From Candidatus Rhodoblastus alkanivorans (GTDB taxonomy: Bacteria > Pseudomonadota > Alphaproteobacteria > Rhizobiales > Beijerinckiaceae), in NCBI RefSeq assembly GCF_022760755.1, contig NZ_JAIVFP010000001.1, positions 3,824,001 through 3,888,000 on the forward strand: DNA of 64,000 bases. The letters run 5' to 3'. A program made the translations under genes and the position numbers. Below are positions 856 through 9,618 of the stretch, piece by piece. Position 1 is the stretch's first letter. Each line of letters opens with the position of its first letter. Under the pieces are notes generated by a model. It saw only the letters and a program-made list of their open reading frames with translations. It did no database searches and had not been told where the DNA came from.

Positions 856-2286
856 TCATTCGGCCGCGAGCGCCTCGTCGGACGCCGCGCCGGTAAAGGC
901 GCGGCCGTGCTGGCGCCAATAAGCATAGAGCTGGGCCAAAGCGCAGGACACGAGGCGCGCCTTCTCATTGTCGGCCCGGCTCGTCAGCATGACCGGGGCC
1001 GAAGCGCCGACGACGAGGCCGGCGGCCTCGGCATGGGCGACGAAGGTGAGTTCCTTCGCCAGCATGTTGCCGGATTCGAGATTGGGGGCGATCAGCACAT
1101 TGGCGTGGCCGGCGACCAGCGAGGCTATGCCCTTGGTGCGCGCCGCGTCGACGTCGATGGCGTTGTCCATGGCGAGCGGGCCATCCACCACGCCGCCGCG
1201 AATCTGGCCGCGCTCGGCCATTTTCGACAGAATCGCCGCGTCGAGCGTGGAGGCGATCGCCGGATTGATGACCTCGACGGCGGACAGGACGCCGACCTTC
1301 GGATCGACGCCGCAGGCGAGCGCCAGATCGATCGCGTTCTGAACGATGTCCACCTTGGTCAGGAGGTCGGGCGCGATATTGATCGCGGCGTCGGAGACGA
1401 ACAGCAGATCGTCGAGGGTCAGCGTATCGAGCACGAAGACATGGCTGATGCGGCGCCCCGCGCGCAGGCCGCCGTCCTTTTTCACCACGGCGGCGAGCAG
1501 GTCGTCGGAGTGGATGTCTCCCTTCATGACCGCGCCGGCCTCGCCCGCCCGGACCATGGCGACCGCCTTGTCGGCGGCGGCGCGGTGGTCCTTCTCCTCG
1601 ACCAGCTTGAACTGGGAAATATCGGCGTCAAGCTCCCTGGCGGCGGCGGCGATGCGCTCCGGGTCGCCGATGAAGATCGGCTCGATCAGTCCCCTCTCGA
1701 ACGCCAGCAGCGGACCGCCCAGCGAATTGTGGTCTTCCGGGCAGACCACGACGGTTTTCAGGCGCGGGAGTTGCGCGGCGAGGTTGATGAGATGCGGGAA
1801 CTGCTCCTTCTCCTCCAGGATCAGCGCCGGCAATTCGCGCACCGGGGTCTCGACATTGCGGGTCGGCGCGCTCACCACCGCCAGGCCCTTGCAGACCGAC
1901 TCGCCCTTGCCGTTGACGACAACGGTGTCGAAGACCACGACCGGTTCGGCGCGCTTTTCCTTGCACGTCACCGTAACGCGCAGCTTGTCGCCGACATGGA
2001 CGCGATGCGGGAACTGGAAATTCTGCTCGATATAAAGCGTGCCCGGGCCAGGCAGGATATTGCCGAGCACCGCCGAGATCAGCGAGCCGACCCACATCGA
2101 AGGCGCGATCGGCGCCTCGGTCGCCTTCTCGCCTTCCACCAGCGGCAGCATCAACGGATTGGTGTTGCCTGAGACATGGGCGAACAGCAGGAGGTCGCGA
2201 TCCGAACAAGTGCGCTCGATCGAAGCCGTATCTCCGACTTGAAGCTGAGCCCAGGTCTTGTTGGTGATGGTTTTCGCCGTTTTCAT
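856..2286 (-). CDS. Bifunctional MaoC-domain / phosphate acetyl(butyryl)transferase
   Basis: 476 residues from the ATG at 2286, which is preceded by a GGAGAGGCGAGCC stretch. Residues ~1-140 are a MaoC hot-dog domain (TWAQLQVGDTASIERT). The rest is a phosphotransacetylase/phosphate butyryltransferase domain with HNSLGGPLLAFERG, the GDIHSDDLLAAVVKK and HVFVLDT region, and a C-terminal APVMLTSRAD motif. It should transfer acyl groups between CoA and phosphate, supplying ackA immediately downstream. The domain order matches proteins usually called bifunctional enoyl-CoA hydratase/phosphate acetyltransferase. The MaoC signature here reads SGNTNPLML, where active hydratases have Asp and His, so the hydratase half may be inactive. 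The longer in-frame extension to 2391 has no convincing start. Confidence 0.9.
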   Translation of the reverse strand: MKTAKTITNKTWAQLQVGDTASIERTCSDRDLLLFAHVSGNTNPLMLPLVEGEKATEAPIAPSMWVGSLISAVLGNILPGPGTLYIEQNFQFPHRVHVGDKLRVTVTCKEKRAEPVVVFDTVVVNGKGESVCKGLAVVSAPTRNVETPVRELPALILEEKEQFPHLINLAAQLPRLKTVVVCPEDHNSLGGPLLAFERGLIEPIFIGDPERIAAAARELDADISQFKLVEEKDHRAAADKAVAMVRAGEAGAVMKGDIHSDDLLAAVVKKDGGLRAGRRISHVFVLDTLTLDDLLFVSDAAINIAPDLLTKVDIVQNAIDLALACGVDPKVGVLSAVEVINPAIASTLDAAILSKMAERGQIRGGVVDGPLAMDNAIDVDAARTKGIASLVAGHANVLIAPNLESGNMLAKELTFVAHAEAAGLVVGASAPVMLTSRADNEKARLVSCALAQLYAYWRQHGRAFTGAASDEALAAE

Positions 2287-2440
2287 GGCTCGCCTCTCCT
2301 TGGAAAGGTCATCGTAAGGCCGATCCGCCCCGGCGGTCGTCCCGCCGTGATCGACGCGCCGCCGGCCGGAGCCCCTTTCGCTGCACTGCAATATACCTTA
2401 GCCAACGTGACGCTCGCGTGAAAACGCTTTCTGACATTTG

Positions 2441-2496
2441 AAGATCATGATCTTTTCCGCAAACCCGATTCCGCTTTTCGCGATCATGATGTAGTT
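2441..2496. repeat. Rhizobiales-type palindromic intergenic repeat
   Basis: The gap between the phosphotransacetylase and helicase genes holds a perfect 14-bp palindrome (AAGATCATGATCTT, 2441-2454). About 25 bp later comes a second GCGATCATGATG half, with A/C/T-rich arms between them. The arrangement resembles the short extragenic palindromes scattered through Rhizobiales genomes. It may act as a transcript 3' structure for the helicase side or be simple repeat DNA. No copy number can be assessed here. Confidence 0.5.
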
Positions 2497-2552
2497 CATT
2501 GTTTTAACGTATGTTCTTGTCAAGAAAGTCTGTAACTCTTTGGGAATATGCG

Positions 2553-3647
2553 CTAGATCACGACGGTCAAATCCTTCGCGGCGCGGGTGACGCCGGTGTA
2601 GAGCCAGCGCTCGCGATTCTCGCGGAACGCCCAGCTCTCGTCGAACAGAACCACCTTATCCCATTGCGAACCCTGCGCCTTGTGCACGGTCAAAGCGTAG
2701 CCATAGTCGAATTCGTCCGAATCGCGCCGCTGGGCGAAGGAGACGCTTTCCTCATTGCCGTCCAGCAGCGCCGGCAGCACCCCGACCCTGATCGCCTTGG
2801 CGCCCGGCGCCTCTTCGGCGGTCAGACTCATGCGATAGCGCGCCCGCCGCACGCCCGAGGCCTTATGAACCCGGAAAATGGCGCCATTGAGCAGGCCCTT
2901 GGCCTTGTCGTTGCGCAGGCAGACCAGTTTCTCGCCGACTTCCGGCAAAATCTCCTTGAAGCCGAACAACTCGCGCAGGCGCCGGTTATAGGCGCGGCGC
3001 GTCTTGTTCAGCCCGACCAGAACCTGGTCGGCGGCCTTGACCAGATCGGCGTCGATCGCCGCACGCGGCATGACCCGCATCGCGCCGTGATCGCCCGGCG
3101 CCAGCCTTTCGCCCGCCCGCACCCGCATCGACAGCCGCACGATGGGATTGTCCGCCGCCTGGCGGTGGACCTCGGTCAGCATGATGTCGGGCGCCTGATC
3201 GGTGAAGAATCCGCCGCCTTTCACGGGCGGCAGCTGCGCCGGATCGCCGAGCACCAGAACCTTTTTCCCGAAGGACAAAAGGTCGCGGCCAAGTTCCTCG
3301 TCCACCATGGAGCATTCGTCGATGACGATCAGGCTCGCCTTTGACGCCGGACTGTCCTCGTTAAGGACGAAGCTCGGCTCCTCGCTGTCGAGGTCCTTGG
3401 GCCGATAGATCATGGAGTGGATGGTGCGCGCCTCGCCGCAGCCTTTTTCGCGCAGAACCAGAGCCGCCTTGCCGGTGAAGGCGCCGAACTGCACCTCGCC
3501 AGAGACATTTTCCGCGACATGGCGGGCGAGCGTGGTCTTGCCGGTCCCGGCATAGCCGAACAGGCGGAAGACCTGGGGACCGCCGGCCTCCGCCAGCCAG
3601 TCCGCGACCGCCGATAAAGCCTTGTCCTGTTGCGACGACCAGTCCAT
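2553..3647 (-). CDS. RecD-like ATP-dependent DNA helicase (AAA/UvrD_C_2)
   Basis: 364 residues from the ATG at 3647 (MDWSSQQDKALSAV). A Walker A motif, GYAGTGKTT, lies at about residue 30. Walker B is LIVIDECSMVDE, followed by motif III VLGDPAQLPPV. The C-terminal 1B/2B signature is YALTVHKAQGSQWDKVVLF, typical of RecD2/Dda-like superfamily 1B helicases. It is much shorter than RecD2 (about 700 aa) because it lacks the N-terminal HhH region, and it belongs to the compact family annotated as RecD-like helicase or exodeoxyribonuclease V subunit. RecB and RecC partners are not nearby, so a stand-alone repair or replication role is inferred. An in-frame start at 3689 is possible but less like the family. 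Confidence 0.85.
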   Translation of the reverse strand: MDWSSQQDKALSAVADWLAEAGGPQVFRLFGYAGTGKTTLARHVAENVSGEVQFGAFTGKAALVLREKGCGEARTIHSMIYRPKDLDSEEPSFVLNEDSPASKASLIVIDECSMVDEELGRDLLSFGKKVLVLGDPAQLPPVKGGGFFTDQAPDIMLTEVHRQAADNPIVRLSMRVRAGERLAPGDHGAMRVMPRAAIDADLVKAADQVLVGLNKTRRAYNRRLRELFGFKEILPEVGEKLVCLRNDKAKGLLNGAIFRVHKASGVRRARYRMSLTAEEAPGAKAIRVGVLPALLDGNEESVSFAQRRDSDEFDYGYALTVHKAQGSQWDKVVLFDESWAFRENRERWLYTGVTRAAKDLTVVI

Positions 3648-3826
3648 TCCTGCCCCAAGCTCCGCGTCATGAGAACTTTTATAGAACAACTGTGAAAGAT
3701 GCGCGAGCGGCGCCGGAAATCACTTGCGAGAAAATCACTTGCGGGAAAATCCTTGGCGCCGCCCGAAACCAAAGCCGACGGCGAAGGTTAAAGCACTGCG
3801 CGCTTCCGCGCGGGAGGGAGAGCACA

Positions 3827-4270
3827 ATGGCCGCCTATACGATCAAAGTTCTGGAAGCCGCCGTCGCCCATAACACCGGCGGCCGCAACGGCCATTCCGA
3901 AACCGAGGACGGCACGGTCAGCGTCGATCTCTCGGTGCGCAAGGGCATGGGCGGGCCCGGCCTGCCCGGCACGACCACGCCCGAACATCTGTTCGCCGCC
4001 GGCTATGCCGCCTGTTTCGGCGGCGCGGTCGATTTCGTCGCCTCCCAGCACAAGGTCAAGATTCCCGACGCGAAAGTGACTTGCAAGGTTTCGGTCGGTC
4101 CGCGCGACGGCGGCGGCTTCGGGATCGGCGTCGAGATGAAAGTGACGTCGAAGAGCCTCCCGACCGCCGAATTGCGCAAGATCGTCGAAGAAGCCCACGA
4201 AATGGTCTGCCCTTACAGCCACGCGACGCGGGGCAATATTCCGTTCCATCTGGAGGTCGAGGGGACCTAA
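3827..4270 (+). CDS. ohr: Organic hydroperoxide resistance protein Ohr/OsmC family
   Basis: 147 residues, preceded by a GGGAGGGAG ribosome-binding site about 7 bases before the ATG. The thiol peroxidase cysteines are both present, in [11 protein letters not shown] near residue 62 and in [13 protein letters not shown] near residue 125, together with the [13 protein letters not shown] signature. Ohr reduces organic hydroperoxides in the cytoplasm, with lipoylated partners as reductants. The length equals that of typical Ohr. It is convergent with rlmN, and their stops overlap by 4 bp. No OhrR repressor gene is seen next to it, so any regulator must lie elsewhere. Confidence 0.95.
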
Positions 4271-5463
4271 TCCAGTTCCGCCGCCATCCGCGCGCGGGCG
4301 CGCAGCTTTTCCGTCTCGCTCTTGAGCTGGCCGCAGGCGGCGAGAATGTCGCGGCCGCGCGGGGTGCGCACCGGGCTGGCGTAACCGGCGTTGAAGACGA
4401 TGTCGGAGAATTTTTCGATTGTTCCCCAGTCCGAGCATTCATAAGGCGCGCCCGGCCAGGGATTGAAGGGTATCAGGTTGATCTTTGCCGGAATGCCCTT
4501 GAGCAGCCGCACCAGTTCGCGCGCCTCAGCCGGAGAATCGTTGACGCCCTTCAGCATCACATATTCAAAAGTGATCCGCCGCGCATTGGAGGCGCCGGGA
4601 TAATCCCGGCAGGCCTGCAACAGCTCTTTGATCGGATATTTCTTGTTGAGCGGCACCAGCCGGTCGCGCAATTCATCGCGCACGGCATGCAGCGAAATCG
4701 CCAGAGCGGCGCCGGATTCGGCGCCGAGCCGCTCGATTTCCGGAACCACGCCCGAGGTCGAGACGGTGATCCGGCGTTTCGACAGCGACAGCCCGTCGCC
4801 ATCGGAAAAAATCTCCACCGCGTCGCGGACATTCTCGAAATTATAAAGCGGCTCGCCCATGCCCATGAAGACGATGTTGGACACCGCGCGCACCCCCTCG
4901 CCCGAGGGAATGAGCCCATTGTCGGGCGGCGTGAGGCCGGGAAAATCGCCCAGTCTTTCGCGCGCCACAATGAGTTGGCTGACTATTTCCGGCGTCGTCA
5001 GATTGCGAACCAGTCTCTGCGTGCCGGTATGACAAAAAGTGCAGTTGAGGGTGCAGCCGACCTGGCTCGACACGCAAAGCGTGCCGCGATCGGCCTCGGG
5101 AATATAGACGCATTCCACTTCCGCGCCCTTGTCGAATTTGTCGACCGGCGCCATGCGGATCAACCATTTTCGCGTGCCGTCGGCGGAAACCTGCTCCTCG
5201 ACGACCTCGGCGCGCGCCAACGAGAAATGCTCGGCCAGTTTCTGGCGCATGGCCTTGGAAACATTGAGCATGGCGTCGAAATTCCGCACGCCGTGGAAAT
5301 AGATCCAGTGCCAGAGCTGGGAGACGCGCATGCGGATTTCGCGCTCGGGCGTCCCGATTTCGCGCAACGCGTCGGCGAGCCCCGCCCGGGTCAATCCGAC
5401 CAGCGAAGGTTTTGAGGGCGCATTGGAAAAAGATTCAGGCGCGGCCTGCTCCGCCAGCGACAT
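4267..5463 (-). CDS. rlmN: 23S rRNA (adenine-C2)-methyltransferase RlmN
   Basis: 398 residues from the ATG at 5463 ([11 protein letters not shown]), chosen because AAGGA lies just upstream; the longer frame to 5535 begins with TTG and no site. It is a radical SAM enzyme that methylates C2 of A2503 in 23S rRNA and A37 in some tRNAs. The cluster motif [11 protein letters not shown] (CxxxCxxC) is at about residue 140. [15 protein letters not shown] binds SAM, and the methyl-carrying cysteine lies in the C-terminal [12 protein letters not shown]. The length matches alphaproteobacterial RlmN. It appears to be a single-gene unit converging on ohr. Confidence 0.96.
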
Positions 5464-5535
5464 GGCGTCCTTAATTTTGTTGGAAAACGGAAGAGCGCTC
5501 AATAGCACAAAAGCCGCGCCGGGGGAACTTTCCAA

Positions 5536-5779
5536 ACATCGGGTCGTGTTTCAGCTCGAATTGCCGTTTGGGCGTCGAAGGAGCGTGGGCTCAAGGCCGG
5601 GACGCGGACGGCCAACCGCCGGGTGAAAAAGGCAAGGTCTGGCAAAGTGATTTTTGAGCGAGATCGTTCGGCGCCGAAGGCCGAACGGGAGTCCCTTGCG
5701 ATGCGCCCGATTCCCTCCGCCCTTGTGGGGAGGGAGTCGGCGCCGACGATTTTGGGCGCTGGCAGGCGCCTTGGGTGTA
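5536..5779. other. Intergenic stretch with several GC-rich hairpins
   Basis: The 244 bp between the PhnA-like gene and rlmN contain no credible gene. Three small dyads are visible: GTTCGGC/GCCGAAC near 5669-5689, CCCTCC/GGAGGG near 5711-5732, and GGCGC/GCGCC near 5756-5771. The last lies just past the PhnA-like stop and may help end that transcript. None has a clear T-tract. Confidence 0.4.
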
Positions 5780-6085
5780 TCAGCGCTTGCGGACGAACTC
5801 GGTGCGCAGAACAAGACCCTTGATCCCCTCGTAACGGCAGTCGATCTCCTGGTCGTTATCGGTAAGCCGGATCGACCTGATGACCGTGCCCTGCTTCAGG
5901 GTCTGATTTGCCCCCTTCACCTTCAAGTCCTTGATGAGGGTAACGGAGTCCCCATCGGCGAGGACATTCCCAGCCGCATCGCGGACTTTGGCCTGATCGC
6001 TTTTGGCCGACGCGGCTATTTCTCCAGCCGGACGCCATTCTCCGGTCGCTTCGTCGTACACATAGTCATCATTTTCGTCGGCCAT
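5780..6085 (-). CDS. PhnA-like protein lacking the zinc ribbon
   Basis: 101 residues from the ATG at 6085, preceded by GGAGACGGAT. The C-terminal ~65 residues match the PhnA SH3-like domain: VRDAAGNVLADGDSVTLIKD, then LKVKGANQTLKQGT, then CRYEGIKGLVLRTEFVRKR. PhnA proteins were named from the phosphonate cluster of E. coli, but their biochemical role is unsettled. The N-terminal region (DDYVYDEATGEWRPAGE) aligns by position with the usual zinc ribbon but has none of its four cysteines. A second start at 6097 would add METD. It is a lone gene with no phosphonate genes nearby. Confidence 0.8.
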   Translation of the reverse strand: MADENDDYVYDEATGEWRPAGEIAASAKSDQAKVRDAAGNVLADGDSVTLIKDLKVKGANQTLKQGTVIRSIRLTDNDQEIDCRYEGIKGLVLRTEFVRKR

Positions 6086-6544
6086 ATCCGTCTCCATCGT
6101 CGCACAAGAGCCTTCTCCCGGCTGGAGAGCCAATTGGCAAGAGCCAAACGACAATATCAGGACAGATATGCCCGGGCCATCTCCAGAGATAGGCTCTACG
6201 GCCCATGCCGCATCGGCAGGCTGGAGAATGCCCGCTATATCCATCCATGATGGTCGAAGGCATGCCGCCGCCGCGATGTCCGATTTCGAGAAACGGCCGA
6301 TTTCGGCTAAGCGACGGAGACGGATGCATCCTCGCTCTTGCCGCCTCCAGTCGGGGACTTCGGCATAGCGCCGATTTGAGCCCGTGACAGTTCCAACTGC
6401 GCGCGACCGCAAAAGTCATCGCCGTTCATATTTCAATCTCCGGTTGTCAAACCCGGTCAAAAACTGTGAAAAAAGAAGATATTTTTTACGATTTCTGGTC
6501 GATTTCGCGCAAAAACCGATCGATTTTCACCCCATTTCCACATC

Positions 6545-6562
6545 TGCAACCCTCAGGTTGCA
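6545..6562. promoter_or_regulatory. 18-bp inverted repeat, possible operator
   Basis: TGCAACC-CTCA-GGTTGCA is a perfect 7-bp dyad with a 4-base spacer. Its form suits a dimeric helix-turn-helix repressor or a MerR-type activator. It lies 460 bp from the PhnA-like start and 170 bp before the transposon. No regulator gene in the window is an obvious partner. Confidence 0.35.
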
Positions 6563-6721
6563 AGGACGTCGCACGACGCCAAAAAATGTTCGCGCGCGCC
6601 GAAATTTTCAAAAGCGCGCGCCCAGCGGTCCGCCGCAACCATAAAATTCATCGCCCCAACAATCCCTTATGTGAAAACGGCGTCTTGCCCCCTCCCCGTC
6701 GCCCGCGCGGCTTTTCATCGC

Positions 6722-6729
6722 CGATGTTT
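6722..6729. repeat. Left copy of 8-bp target-site duplication
   Basis: CGATGTTT directly abuts the left transposon end and is repeated exactly at 9473-9480 after the right end. Removing the element and one copy restores continuous intergenic DNA. Confidence 0.9.
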
Positions 6730-6798
6730 GGGACCTATATACGTGCTTGACCTAAATCCAAAAAAGGCCTAGAGTCTTCTCAATGGGGGAGACGCGCC

Positions 6799-7710
6799 GT
6801 GGTCACGAATTTCGACAGCCTCTTTGATCTGATGGACGCATTCAAGGACGAACAGGCTTGTATCAACCATCTTCGCGCGATTCGCTGGGCTGACGGTGAA
6901 TTCTGCCCCCACTGCGGCGCCAACAAGATTTATCACTTCAGCGACCGTAAGACGTTTAAATGCGGCGACTGCAAGGCTCGCTTTTCGATCAAGGTAGGGA
7001 CCATCTTTGAGGATACGAAACTCCCGCTCCGCAAATGGTTCATGGCTATTTGGATGATTACCAATCACCCGAAGGGCATCGCCTCTGTTACGCTCGCCAA
7101 GGATCTGAAAATCACTCAGAAGTCCGCGTGGTTTGTCCTGCATCGCCTGCGCCACGCGGCCCGCACGAATTCGTTCAATGCGCCGCTCAAAGGCGAGGTC
7201 CAAAGCGATACCACCTATATCGGAGGCAAACAGCACAATAAACACGCCGATAAACGCGAGGTCGGTTCGCATGGCGGCGCCAAGATGGAAACGTTGCTCG
7301 GCGTCGTGGAGACTGGGGGCGAGCTTCGCATTGCCCATACCGAGAACCGCAAGATCGGGACGACGCAGGACGTAATCCTTCCGAACGTCGAGCAGGGTTC
7401 GATCCTCGTTACTGACGAAGGTGGCGAATTCAGAGGGCTCGAACGTGATTATGTCCATATCACCATCAACCATAAGAAGGGCGAATATGCCCGCGACGGC
7501 TTCCACACGAATTCGATTGAGTCTGTTTGGGCGCTCTTGAAGCGCCAGATCGTCGGAATTCATCATTGGGTTTCACCCAAACATTTGCAAAAATACGCGA
7601 ATGAAATGGCTTGGCGCTATAATCGCCGCGACATGAAGCCGTCGCCGCGCATGAATGATCTGTTCGCCTGCGTCGAGGGCCGTCTTCGCTATCGGGAACT
7701 GATCGCGTGA
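6799..7710 (+). CDS. IS1595-family (ISXO2-like) transposase
   Basis: 303 residues with a GTG start 69 bp inside the left end, preceded by GGGGGAGA. The N-terminal zinc ribbon has CPHCGANK at ~34 and CGDCKARF at ~54, as in ISXO2-type transposases. The catalytic domain shows VQSDTTYIGG (first Asp) and LVTDEGGEF (second acidic position). The HTNSIESVWALLKR motif supplies the H-N-E portion of the DDE-like active site. The frame is intact and of normal family length, so transposition activity is plausible. The last bases, GTGA, overlap the start of the following small gene, so the two are translated in tandem. Confidence 0.95.
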   Translation: MVTNFDSLFDLMDAFKDEQACINHLRAIRWADGEFCPHCGANKIYHFSDRKTFKCGDCKARFSIKVGTIFEDTKLPLRKWFMAIWMITNHPKGIASVTLAKDLKITQKSAWFVLHRLRHAARTNSFNAPLKGEVQSDTTYIGGKQHNKHADKREVGSHGGAKMETLLGVVETGGELRIAHTENRKIGTTQDVILPNVEQGSILVTDEGGEFRGLERDYVHITINHKKGEYARDGFHTNSIESVWALLKRQIVGIHHWVSPKHLQKYANEMAWRYNRRDMKPSPRMNDLFACVEGRLRYRELIA

Positions 7711-7898
7711 CCAATAAGGGGAAAAAGTTGGAGCCACCGCTCAGGCTCGATATGAGCTTTGGGGAAGCTTTGGGCCGGTTTGCTCGGACAGACCCGAAAG
7801 AAGTCGAAGATGGGATCGCGCGGTCAAAAACAAAAAAACCGCCGGAGGAAAGCCCCCGGCGGCGAGTCGCTAAACCAAAAGGCTCACTTGGGAAGTGA
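7707..7898 (+). CDS. Small protein coupled to the transposase
   Basis: 63 residues starting at a GTG that overlaps the transposase stop in a GTGA tetranucleotide. The N-terminal half (LRLDMSFGEALGRFARTDPK) resembles short proteins often seen beside mobile or toxin-antitoxin genes in alphaproteobacteria. The C-terminal half is Lys/Arg/Pro-rich and disordered. Its function is unknown. Overlap with the transposase suggests an accessory or dosage role in transposition. Its 3' end runs antisense to the terminator of the 27-aa gene on the other strand, so the last ~20 codons may be constrained by that hairpin. Confidence 0.65.
   Translation: MTNKGKKLEPPLRLDMSFGEALGRFARTDPKEVEDGIARSKTKKPPEESPRRRVAKPKGSLGK
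7831..7862 (-). terminator. Rho-independent terminator of the 27-aa gene
   Basis: On the minus strand, CCGCCGG (7862-7856) pairs with CCGGCGG (7845-7839), and a run of seven T residues follows. It lies 21 bp past the stop of the short minus-strand gene and is a textbook intrinsic terminator. It also lies inside the plus-strand 63-aa frame. Confidence 0.8.
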
Positions 7899-7967
7899 GC
7901 GATAGTGGCTCCTGACATGCTCGATGCGCCCGTAACGAATGCGAGTGTAGTCAGTTACGTAGACCAT
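7884..7967 (-). CDS. 27-residue antisense micro-protein in the transposon
   Basis: The frame reads MVYVTDYTRIRYGRIEHVRS and ends HYRSLPK before TGA at 7886-7884. An AGGAG Shine-Dalgarno sits 8 bases before the ATG, and a strong intrinsic terminator follows 21 bp after the stop, so both ends of a transcription unit are visible. The peptide is basic, with four Tyr and five Arg, and has no membrane segment. The Shine-Dalgarno is part of a small hairpin (7972-7990), suggesting controlled translation. No family is recognised. It could be a transposition regulator, a leader peptide, or a decoy frame over a small RNA. Confidence 0.6.
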   Translation of the reverse strand: MVYVTDYTRIRYGRIEHVRSHYRSLPK

Positions 7968-7971
7968 ATTC

Positions 7972-8000
7972 AGCTCCTATGATTGGAGCCTTGAACAAGG
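7972..8000 (-). promoter_or_regulatory. Hairpin masking the 27-aa gene's ribosome-binding site
   Basis: On the minus strand, GGCTCC (7990-7985) can pair with AGGAGC (7978-7973) across a 6-base loop, hiding the Shine-Dalgarno. Just upstream, CCTTG/CAAGG (8000-7989) forms a second short dyad that would compete for the same bases. The arrangement resembles translational attenuation. Confidence 0.5.
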
Positions 8001-8090
8001 AGTCGTGATCCTATATACTTATTACGCGATTACGGGCGGACCCCGCTCACCCACCAGGCACCTCACAAGTTTTGGTGGACCCGCAAAACC

Positions 8091-8127
8091 CGGCCCAGAA
8101 TGGTGGTTGCAACACCATTCTGGGCCG
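8091..8127. repeat. Perfect 15-bp stem-loop inside the transposon
   Basis: CGGCCCAGAATGGTG (8091-8105) and its exact reverse complement (8113-8127) flank a 7-base loop, GTTGCAA, that contains the palindrome TTGCAA. No T-run follows on either strand, so it is not a typical terminator. It lies in the 345-bp gap between the 27-aa gene and the winged-helix gene. It could be a protein-binding or RNA-processing structure. Confidence 0.7.
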
Positions 8128-8313
8128 GACGCGTTTCGCGACCCTGCCAAAGATCACACTAAACGATTCAGCGTCAGGGTTCAAGCGCGGGGAACGTATC
8201 GCGCACACGGAAATGCATGGTTAACGAATCCTTAAAAATTGTGGTTAACGGAATCCAGATTTGAATTTCAGAACCCCTCGTGCTATAAACCATATTCAAC
8301 GAGGGGTTCGGCT

Positions 8314-8868
8314 ATGGACAAGACGTTATCAAATGCGCTTCGCCGCAAATCCGAACTTGAAAGAGAATTAGAAGAAATCAACATTTTCATTAGGTTGCAC
8401 AGCAAATTCTCTGCCATCCAATCGCCGCTAGTCATGTCTGACTCGGTCGATGCAGTGATAATCAAGGGCAATGCGTCGACATCCCCCGCAGAAGAATCGT
8501 CAGCGCGGAAAAGGGGAAGGCCGGCCGATTTCGTAGAACTTATGAAAGCAGTTTTGATGGAAGCGGGCAGGCCTCTAAGCCGTCCGGACTTCGTTGTGGA
8601 ATTGGAGCGTCGCGGCGTAGAAATTCCCAGCGAAGACAAACCCAGGTATCTTGGAACCATCCTGTGGAGAAACAGGAGGATATTTAGAAACTTGCTCAAT
8701 CACGGCTATTGGCTTGCATCAATTCCCTATCCGCCAGCTGGGTACGATCCAGCGACGGATACAGAAGCGCAAAGAGTGTTAGATATGGAGGGTGCAATCA
8801 TAGAGCCACCGCCCTCGGAAGACGGCGCCAATTACGCGGCAGTCGGGGACGATGATGATGACCGTTGA
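8314..8868 (+). CDS. Passenger protein: coiled coil plus winged-helix (HARE-HTH-like) domain
   Basis: 184 residues from the ATG at 8314. Residues ~5-30 form a heptad-rich segment (RRKSELERELEEINIF). A short linker with an AT-hook-like RKRGRPADF (~67-75) leads to a winged-helix segment of ~80 residues. There, GRPLSRPDFVVELERRG, the KPRYLGTILWRN region and NHGYWLA match the pattern of HARE-HTH/ASXL-type DNA-binding domains. The tail is acidic (GDDDDDR). A nucleic-acid-binding role is inferred from the domain, and no enzyme motif is seen. It is the main cargo gene of the transposon and overlaps the following 71-aa gene by 17 bp. Confidence 0.75.
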   Translation: MDKTLSNALRRKSELERELEEINIFIRLHSKFSAIQSPLVMSDSVDAVIIKGNASTSPAEESSARKRGRPADFVELMKAVLMEAGRPLSRPDFVVELERRGVEIPSEDKPRYLGTILWRNRRIFRNLLNHGYWLASIPYPPAGYDPATDTEAQRVLDMEGAIIEPPPSEDGANYAAVGDDDDDR

Positions 8869-9067
8869 TGAATATTACGCCATCGTTAAACGGCTTGGTC
8901 TTACCCGCGACAAAATAGTTCATTCAGTTTATTGGGATAGGGACCGACAATCTATAACCGTACCAGATCCTAATGAACTGGAAACGCCAGACCAAGTCAG
9001 AAGAGCGGCAATACGATTGATTAAAAAGTGTGGGGAAAACCCAACCGATTTTGGACTAGACGATTAG
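8852..9067 (+). CDS. 71-residue transposon passenger protein, unknown
   Basis: The frame starts within the acidic tail codons of the previous gene, with ATGs at 8852, 8855 and 8858 all possible. It encodes a soluble protein (TVDEYYAIVKRLGLTR, then HSVYWDRDRQSITVPDP). No family is recognised. The tight overlap with the winged-helix gene suggests co-translation and a shared role. It ends convergently with the DUF1902-like gene, with a 4-bp overlap. Confidence 0.65.
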   Translation: MMMTVDEYYAIVKRLGLTRDKIVHSVYWDRDRQSITVPDPNELETPDQVRRAAIRLIKKCGENPTDFGLDD

Positions 9068-9333
9068 CAGATAGCCGCTTTCACGAGTTCAGCCGGGAAC
9101 GCAACCCACGGCTCAAATTGATCGTCACCATCATCAGCCTTTGACACAACGACGTCAGACCCACATGCGAGATATAAATCATGAATCGCTTTAGAAACCG
9201 CAATATCCATTTTTTCTAAGGTCGTAGCGGCAACAAGCAATCCTTTCAGATCGGGGCTGGTGGCAAAAAACATGTCACCATCCGCCTCAACCAGAACCCG
9301 GACGATCTTGGCTTTCATTTTTGCGGACACCAT
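9064..9333 (-). CDS. DUF1902/HicB-like small protein
   Basis: 89 residues from the ATG at 9333, with AAGGGG upstream. The core KIVRVLVEADGDMFFATSPD, then LKGLLVAATTLEKMDIAVSKA, has the partial RNase-H fold pattern of DUF1902 and HicB antitoxins (a variable strand, then a 'pass judgement on D-L-x-G-L' turn). No HicA toxin frame is found beside it, so it is an orphan within the transposon. It is the last gene before the right terminal repeat. A regulatory or antitoxin-like role is inference only. Confidence 0.65.
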   Translation of the reverse strand: MVSAKMKAKIVRVLVEADGDMFFATSPDLKGLLVAATTLEKMDIAVSKAIHDLYLACGSDVVVSKADDGDDQFEPWVAFPAELVKAAIC

Positions 9334-9472
9334 GCATTTTACCCCTTGACATTTGCCCAGAATCGAAGCCTACGCGCAAAGCGCACTCTATCATATAATA
9401 TAAGATGGAGGGAATCCCTTTTAGGTCATTTTGGCCGCGTGCACAGTCGGGTCACACTCGTATATAGGTCCC

Positions 9473-9480
9473 CGATGTTT
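9473..9480. repeat. Right copy of 8-bp target-site duplication
   Basis: CGATGTTT, identical to 6722-6729, immediately follows the right terminal inverted repeat. Confidence 0.9.
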
Positions 9481-9618
9481 CACATGGAACATAACGCGAA
9501 CAAAAACACCGAAAAACCGAATGGATTTTTCCTGTCCAAAACATTTCCACCCCTCGCCGCTTTCGCCCAAAGGCCTGAGGCGCTTCTTCGCGCGTAAATG
9601 CGAACGGCCACAGTCAAA

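Follow-up and report, generated by a model that had tools for sequence, protein, structure and literature searches.

We characterized a passenger-bearing transposon of the IS1595 family that occupies positions 6730-9472 of a 64,000-nucleotide stretch of the Candidatus Rhodoblastus alkanivorans genome (the window). The element is about 2.7 kb long and complete, with an intact transposase. Its terminal inverted repeats at 6730-6752 (left end, + strand, GGGACCTATATACGTGCTTGACC) and 9450-9472 (right end, - strand) match at 20 of 23 positions, and an exact 8-bp target duplication, CGATGTTT, flanks it at 6722-6729 and 9473-9480. Both the GG-type inverted ends and the 8-bp duplication of the IS1595 family are present, and 6730-9472 is, as judged from these bounds, one DNA unit. 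The transposase (303 amino acids (aa), GTG start, 6799-7710, + strand) was assigned via Pfam, NCBIfam and alignment. Its catalytic domain matches PF12762 (DDE_Tnp_IS1595) over positions 1-153 of the 153-position model (E 1.4e-36, 126.2 bits against a cut-off of 27), the protein further matches NF033547 (E 1.5e-50, 172.1 bits against a cut-off of 75), and the N-terminal zinc ribbon PF12760 is found at 47.4 bits (cut-off 25.4). An excerpt of PMC8101967 describes a DDE transposase, an N-terminal zinc ribbon and 8-bp duplications for this family. The transposase stop overlaps by 4 nt (GTGA) with the GTG start of a gene for a 63-aa protein (7707-7898, + strand). The N-terminal half of this protein is a peptide of about 20 residues, here called the tag, whose window version EPPLRLDMSFGEALGRFARTDPKEV was delimited using profiles at residues 9-33 (7731-7805, + strand). 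It is followed on the - strand by the gene of a 27-aa peptide (7884-7967), assigned by family comparison to a family that we call p27. Three passenger genes complete the element: a 184-aa protein with an N-terminal helix (coiled coil by eye) and a winged-helix domain in its AlphaFold2 model (8314-8868, + strand), a 71-aa open reading frame (ORF) overlapping the 184-aa gene (8852-9067, + strand), and an 89-aa protein (9064-9333, - strand). An earlier sequence-only reading had called this a complete IS1595-family transposon bearing passengers in the manner of the ISNha5 group, and the ends, the duplication, the transposase and the passenger ORFs between the ends bear out both calls.

The element is present as a single copy in its own genome, where its insertion target is a dispersed intergenic repeat with uninterrupted paralogues. 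When the flanks were joined with one copy of the duplication, the alignment with these paralogues was continuous over the junction (68% over 389 columns for L446, 73% over 121 columns for L447 and 79% over 92 columns for L451; L numbers denote loci). At the orthologous locus, the nearest matches to the left and right flanks are separated by 33-1807 bp in nine of ten congeners, indicating that an element of this size is absent there; in the tenth they lie more than 20 kb apart. Intergenic DNA is too little conserved between these species for an orthologous empty site to be defined to the base. A 16-mer that we take to be parS-like (TGTTTCACATGGAACA, 9476-9491) adjoins the insertion within the dispersed repeat. 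The genome holds eight sites at most one mismatch from TGTTTCACATGRAACA, one of which is the palindrome TGTTTCACGTGAAACA.

Using wider scans, related elements were collected. They returned 355 loci with a related transposase, 225 of them at less than 90% transposase identity, and 94 of the latter show paired ends together with an exact 8-bp duplication. The same search on reversed sequence found 0 of 216 loci, so that the bounded elements are not a product of chance. Ends like those of the window element and exact 8-bp duplications are seen in L004, L006, L007, L009, L012 and L040, and a more distant bounded relative (L011) lies in a Bacteroidetes contig. Passenger ORFs were defined mechanically as ORFs of at least 100 aa outside the transposase, and some may not be genes. 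At least one such ORF is carried by 93 of the 94 bounded elements, which are non-redundant, and the same ends around a transposase alone are thus nearly absent in this sample. The sole exception is L424 (1179 bp), and there is none among the 21 elements of the window's tag clade. The sequence-only reading had named two findings that would speak against it. Of these, ends enclosing only the transposase were seen just this once, and cargo genes found independently were seen in part, as the winged-helix family of the 184-aa protein also occurs without IS1595. Plain IS1595-family insertion sequences of the Xanthomonas type, described in an excerpt of PMC11092175 as about 1 kb long with one ORF, belong to the same transposase superfamily, whereas the bounded elements of our group have a median size of 2492 bp (range 1179-5946, n=94).

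The passengers of these elements were compared with Pfam for 137 of the 172 ORFs of at least 100 aa, in two scans of 52 and 85 ORFs. The scans covered neither L009:6495-6917, the second part of a broken transposase, nor the second transposase in L169, and families of the 85-ORF scan are the best 25 of 32. The families found include P63C, KilA-N, RhuM and Bro-N (the Bro-N passenger of L007 being similar to an annotated DinD), several classes of DNA methyltransferases and restriction nucleases, type I specificity domains and GmrSD. Further families are AIPR, DUF3800, M78 peptidase, SocA-like and PemK, besides dCTP-deaminase-like, RelA/SpoT, Clp and trypsin-like proteins, and winged-helix proteins also occur. 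A PADLOC scan of 52 passengers gave the candidate anti-phage families PDC-S05 and PDC-S23 and type II methyltransferases among the matches listed (best 25 of 262); some passengers of related elements match such families, and the PADLOC listing does not separate out the window protein. Passengers differ, by these comparisons, among elements that share this kind of ends. A constant cargo operon was ruled out, the passengers being unrelated between elements, and the one defined cargo set of the sequence-only reading was not borne out: cargo varies among same-ended elements, and the 71-aa and 89-aa genes of the window have no match among 465 other loci (E 0.01) and none in plasmids. Two further observations concern the make-up of individual elements. 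In a clade-B element (L142, element positions 2207-2690), a 96-aa and a 68-aa ORF presumably resemble a HicB/HicA pair, as compared by eye. The 4.6-kb element of L169 contains a second, different IS1595-like transposase (element positions 1297-2223) and may therefore be nested.

The tag recurs across elements with unrelated passengers. In clade A it is either a small stand-alone ORF (L002, which is the window, and L004, L009, L012, L040, L089, L094, L097, L169, L171, L172 and L173) or the N-terminus of a larger protein (L006, L007, L088, L090, L091, L095, L096, L170 and L175). A divergent tag forms the C-terminus of KilA/P63C-like passengers in clade B (e.g. L150, FNQSLKGLLNVPPPQ) and stands alone in L011, and clade R has a divergent version, RRxxxLKRMLxTPPKPHK, in small ORFs, the nine that were read being 42-69 aa long. 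Profiles of the three versions hit 47 of the 94 bounded elements (A 21, B 8, R 18; 261,270 bp), and in 715,102 bp of flanks they gave one hit for A and none for B or R. These element counts are partly circular, as 17 of the 47 hit elements supplied profile seeds (A 7, B 8, R 2), leaving 14, 0 and 16. Fixed profiles were therefore applied to the 131 loci without ends, of which 124 have enough downstream and 115 enough upstream sequence. Tags were found downstream in 29 of 124 (A 8, B 1, R 20; one of the 29, L182, is a seed) and upstream in 0 of 115. Tag-like termini were additionally noted by eye, and left uncounted, in L115, L119, L110, L131, L141 and L176. Searches of Pfam, NCBIfam and PHROGs up to E 1 gave no match for the window 63-aa protein, and the tag proteins tried are not covered by any Pfam or NCBIfam model. 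In Methylocystis rosea pGW6_1 (L186), a tag ORF follows the transposase at 6001-6918 and is absent from the plasmid's listed gene table, which is incomplete.

We favor, with somewhat better than even confidence, a reading in which this passenger transposon of the IS1595 family looks autonomous and belongs to a large group whose cargo can be swapped, and in which the tag would be a transposition accessory that ties the passenger to mobility. The two parts of this reading differ in strength. The anatomy, together with swapped cargo and a recurring tag, is very probable from the comparisons above, and there is about an even chance that the tag acts in transposition by way of the transposase; the latter is inferred from the facts that the tag recurs, overlaps the transposase gene in clade A and is missing from the homologues checked. 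As an accessory peptide of the transposition complex, the tag would bind the transposase or a factor used by it. Whether as part of the passenger protein or as the product of a neighbouring gene, it would tie that passenger to mobility, which would account for the near-absence of transposase-only derivatives in the sample. In the window element, the stand-alone 63-aa tag protein would act together with p27. The transposition-control module put forward by the sequence-only reading is in keeping with this in so far as the 63-aa tag protein and the 27-aa peptide are conserved parts of the element and would fit such a role. A bolder version, which we hold only tentatively, makes a single short peptide the universal adaptor by which any carried gene would be coupled physically to the transposition machinery. 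A gene that gains the tag would become a resident passenger, loss of the passenger would cost mobility, and the element would be a self-reinforcing shuttle for often defence-related genes.

In clade A, the nearest tag-ORF start forms a 4-nt A/GTGA overlap with the transposase stop in 14 of 21 elements, lies 5-47 nt before the stop in five and 2 nt after it in one; in the remaining one, L009, the transposase frame is broken. This stop-start overlap would also suit a transposition inhibitor made together with the transposase, in which case fused DNA-binding or DNA-modifying passengers would have become self-regulators of copy number. The single copy of the element in its genome and the winged-helix, KilA-N, Bro-N and RhuM proteins among the passengers fit such an inhibitor, yet inhibition alone leaves the retention of passengers unexplained, and we regard it as an unlikely account. 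On sequence alone, the inhibitor and the accessory are inseparable.

Codon-position differences were 1682/1251/3036 over 21 tags and 862/705/1334 over 15 copies of p27 (positions 1/2/3), suggesting that both are coding. The tag adjoins the transposase end in clade A, as would be expected if the element were an ordinary passenger transposon and the tag an ancestral C-terminal piece of the transposase that had drifted into its own frame and plays no particular part. The codon-position pattern is, however, that of constrained coding sequence, and the C-terminal fusions of clade B and the opposite-strand ORFs of clade R argue against it as well, so that we give such drift a very low probability.

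p27 is a conserved peptide family, by eye approximately CHxVRxYxRIRFGRLEHVRxHWRCC, of which the window copy lacks the cysteines. It was found in 10 of 12 clade-A elements with a stand-alone tag and in none of nine with a fused tag (Fisher P 2.2e-4) and hence goes with the stand-alone tag protein. In the flanks no match better than E 2 was obtained. p27 is also seen beside winged-helix genes in L038 (a short contig), in L051 (no transposase match) and in L046, where a distant IS1595-like transposase (29% identity) lies about 0.5 kb away.

Homologues of tagged passengers were used to ask whether the tag belongs to the passenger or to the element. Plasmid homologues of the Dam-type methylase align only beyond the tag, starting at residue 39 or further on, in each of the 25 listed of 2402 records; for DinD, 20 of the 25 listed of 34 records start at residue 38 or further on. 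The five DinD exceptions are all Zymomonas plasmid proteins aligned from residue 13, and the one that was read has the tag. It is encoded on Zymomonas mobilis pZM41 (L452 3285-4832), where an unannotated IS1595 relic carries the tagged DinD: a decayed IS1595 transposase C-terminus (42% over 62 residues, E 5e-9) lies directly upstream, and downstream comes GGAACCTATATAT, which resembles the right end of such an element. None of six untagged homologues whose N-termini were read (five RhuM, one DinD) has a transposase match at E 0.01 within 3.5 kb on each side. The prediction that tag and IS1595 vicinity go together was checked on the homologues read, and the sole tagged one sits on an IS1595 relic. 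In another genome, a motif search found a transposase followed by a tag on a DinD-like protein (L464/L465). By these alignments, the tag accompanies the element and not the passenger. The tag could in principle serve the passengers' own function, e.g. as a subunit or sensor common to defence genes, and many passengers do look defence-like. It is, however, present on the unrelated RhuM, DinD and Dam-type methylase proteins and as a stand-alone ORF beside winged-helix genes, and the homologues examined away from IS1595 do not have it, which makes such a function improbable.

A further account holds that the tag contacts a host factor, e.g. the replication clamp or a nucleoid protein, and steers target choice without touching the transposase. 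Transposition proteins that bind the clamp exist, and the tag is short, linear and found alone or at either terminus. Against this, no clamp motif was recognisable by eye when compared with the consensus, and tag versions sort with the transposase clade in a comparison of transposases. We consider a host-factor contact decidedly unlikely.

Several results weigh against the tag as a transposition accessory of the whole group. The sample is biased, as viral contigs supply 316 of the 355 loci and 74 of the 94 bounded elements. By profiles, 43 of the 94 bounded elements have no tag even at E 0.3. Clade-R hits lie on the opposite strand in 18 of 19 cases, so that the tag does not overlap the transposase gene throughout the group, and all eight clade-B element hits are seeds, which leaves L409 as the only held-out hit for clade B. 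Pairwise hhalign comparison puts the profiles of all three clades in the same register (E 0.011, 2.4e-4 and 1.4e-4); with probabilities of 4, 43 and 53%, homology between the A, B and R versions is no more than suggested. The clade-A tag did not diverge significantly in step with the transposase (Mantel r 0.137 for 27 elements, a value reached in 893 of 5000 permutations), and a search for natural fusions of transposase and tag in the transposase ORFs from the 355 loci found none (best E 0.32). Further, alignments with plasmid homologues of RhuM begin before or within the tag (residue 8 or 12) in 8 of the 25 listed of 122 records; the N-terminal tag is absent in all five RhuM homologues read, two from these eight rows and three others.

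Passenger-bearing insertion sequences are already known. Siguier, Gagnevin and Chandler reportedly described the IS1595 family, the ISNha5 group and the 'transporter IS' (tIS) in 2009. Passenger genes of ISNha5, including a transcription regulator, and the tIS idea are given in an excerpt of PMC11891212, which cites that 2009 paper. The window element resembles this group in having passenger ORFs between its ends, a likeness by description, and differs from it in that the excerpts of PMC11891212 and PMC8101967 contain no tag, passenger fusion, p27 or defence-like cargo. No title or abstract opening on such a tag was found among the papers listed in the open literature searched, a scope that leaves out subscription papers and ISfinder. 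We know of no explanation for why some groups seemingly always keep a passenger. A tag that recurs on unrelated passengers and is absent from homologues checked elsewhere offers a handle that can be tested directly. As with Zymomonas, searching for the tag alone could also uncover IS1595 relics along with the genes that they carry, many of which are defence-like and have poor annotation.

The winged-helix, 71-aa and 89-aa genes of the window are probably the current passenger, a small DNA-binding regulatory or defence module. No window passenger reaches a curated cut-off in Pfam or NCBIfam, and none matches a toxin family in Pfam, NCBIfam or PHROGs, where distant toxins could escape. The 89-aa protein had been called DUF1902-like, which fails at E 0.023 and 15.2 bits, under the gathering cut-off of 22, and its likeness to DUF1902/UPF0150, a HicB-like type, is accordingly weak. 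A search of 397 genomes gave its gene, apart from itself, two weak hits. The AlphaFold2 model of the 184-aa protein shows a long N-terminal helix and a winged helix with a predicted local distance difference test score above 90 for most of the domain. Its top Foldseek hit is an RPOE-RPOC model at E 0.11, none being at or below 0.001, and ranks 14, 20 and 22 are Bacillus subtilis RNA polymerase chains that we take to be delta and HARE-type. The protein differs from HARE-HTH proteins and RNA polymerase delta in its long N-terminal helix and the lack of matching profiles: no HARE-HTH match was found in Pfam at E up to 1 or in NCBIfam, nor a PDB relative by sequence profile (best E 0.24). The earlier HARE-HTH-like call has behind it a confidently modelled winged helix and weak Foldseek matches, and lacks support from Pfam, NCBIfam or PDB sequences; a HARE-HTH identity is possible, not established. 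Non-autonomous copies around its relatives were considered and rejected, as paired ends were found only at L040. Relatives of the winged-helix gene recur in seven other IS1595 loci, with paired ends in L012, L040, L094 and L097 and without in L042, L049 and L098, and also occur without a visible IS1595 transposase (L459, L460, L461 and L463). A hairpin tried as a site shared between elements was likewise rejected, with nothing similar in 11 related elements checked; it consists of a 7-bp loop between perfectly matching 16-bp arms (8090-8128), with the 27-aa gene on one side and the winged-helix gene on the other.

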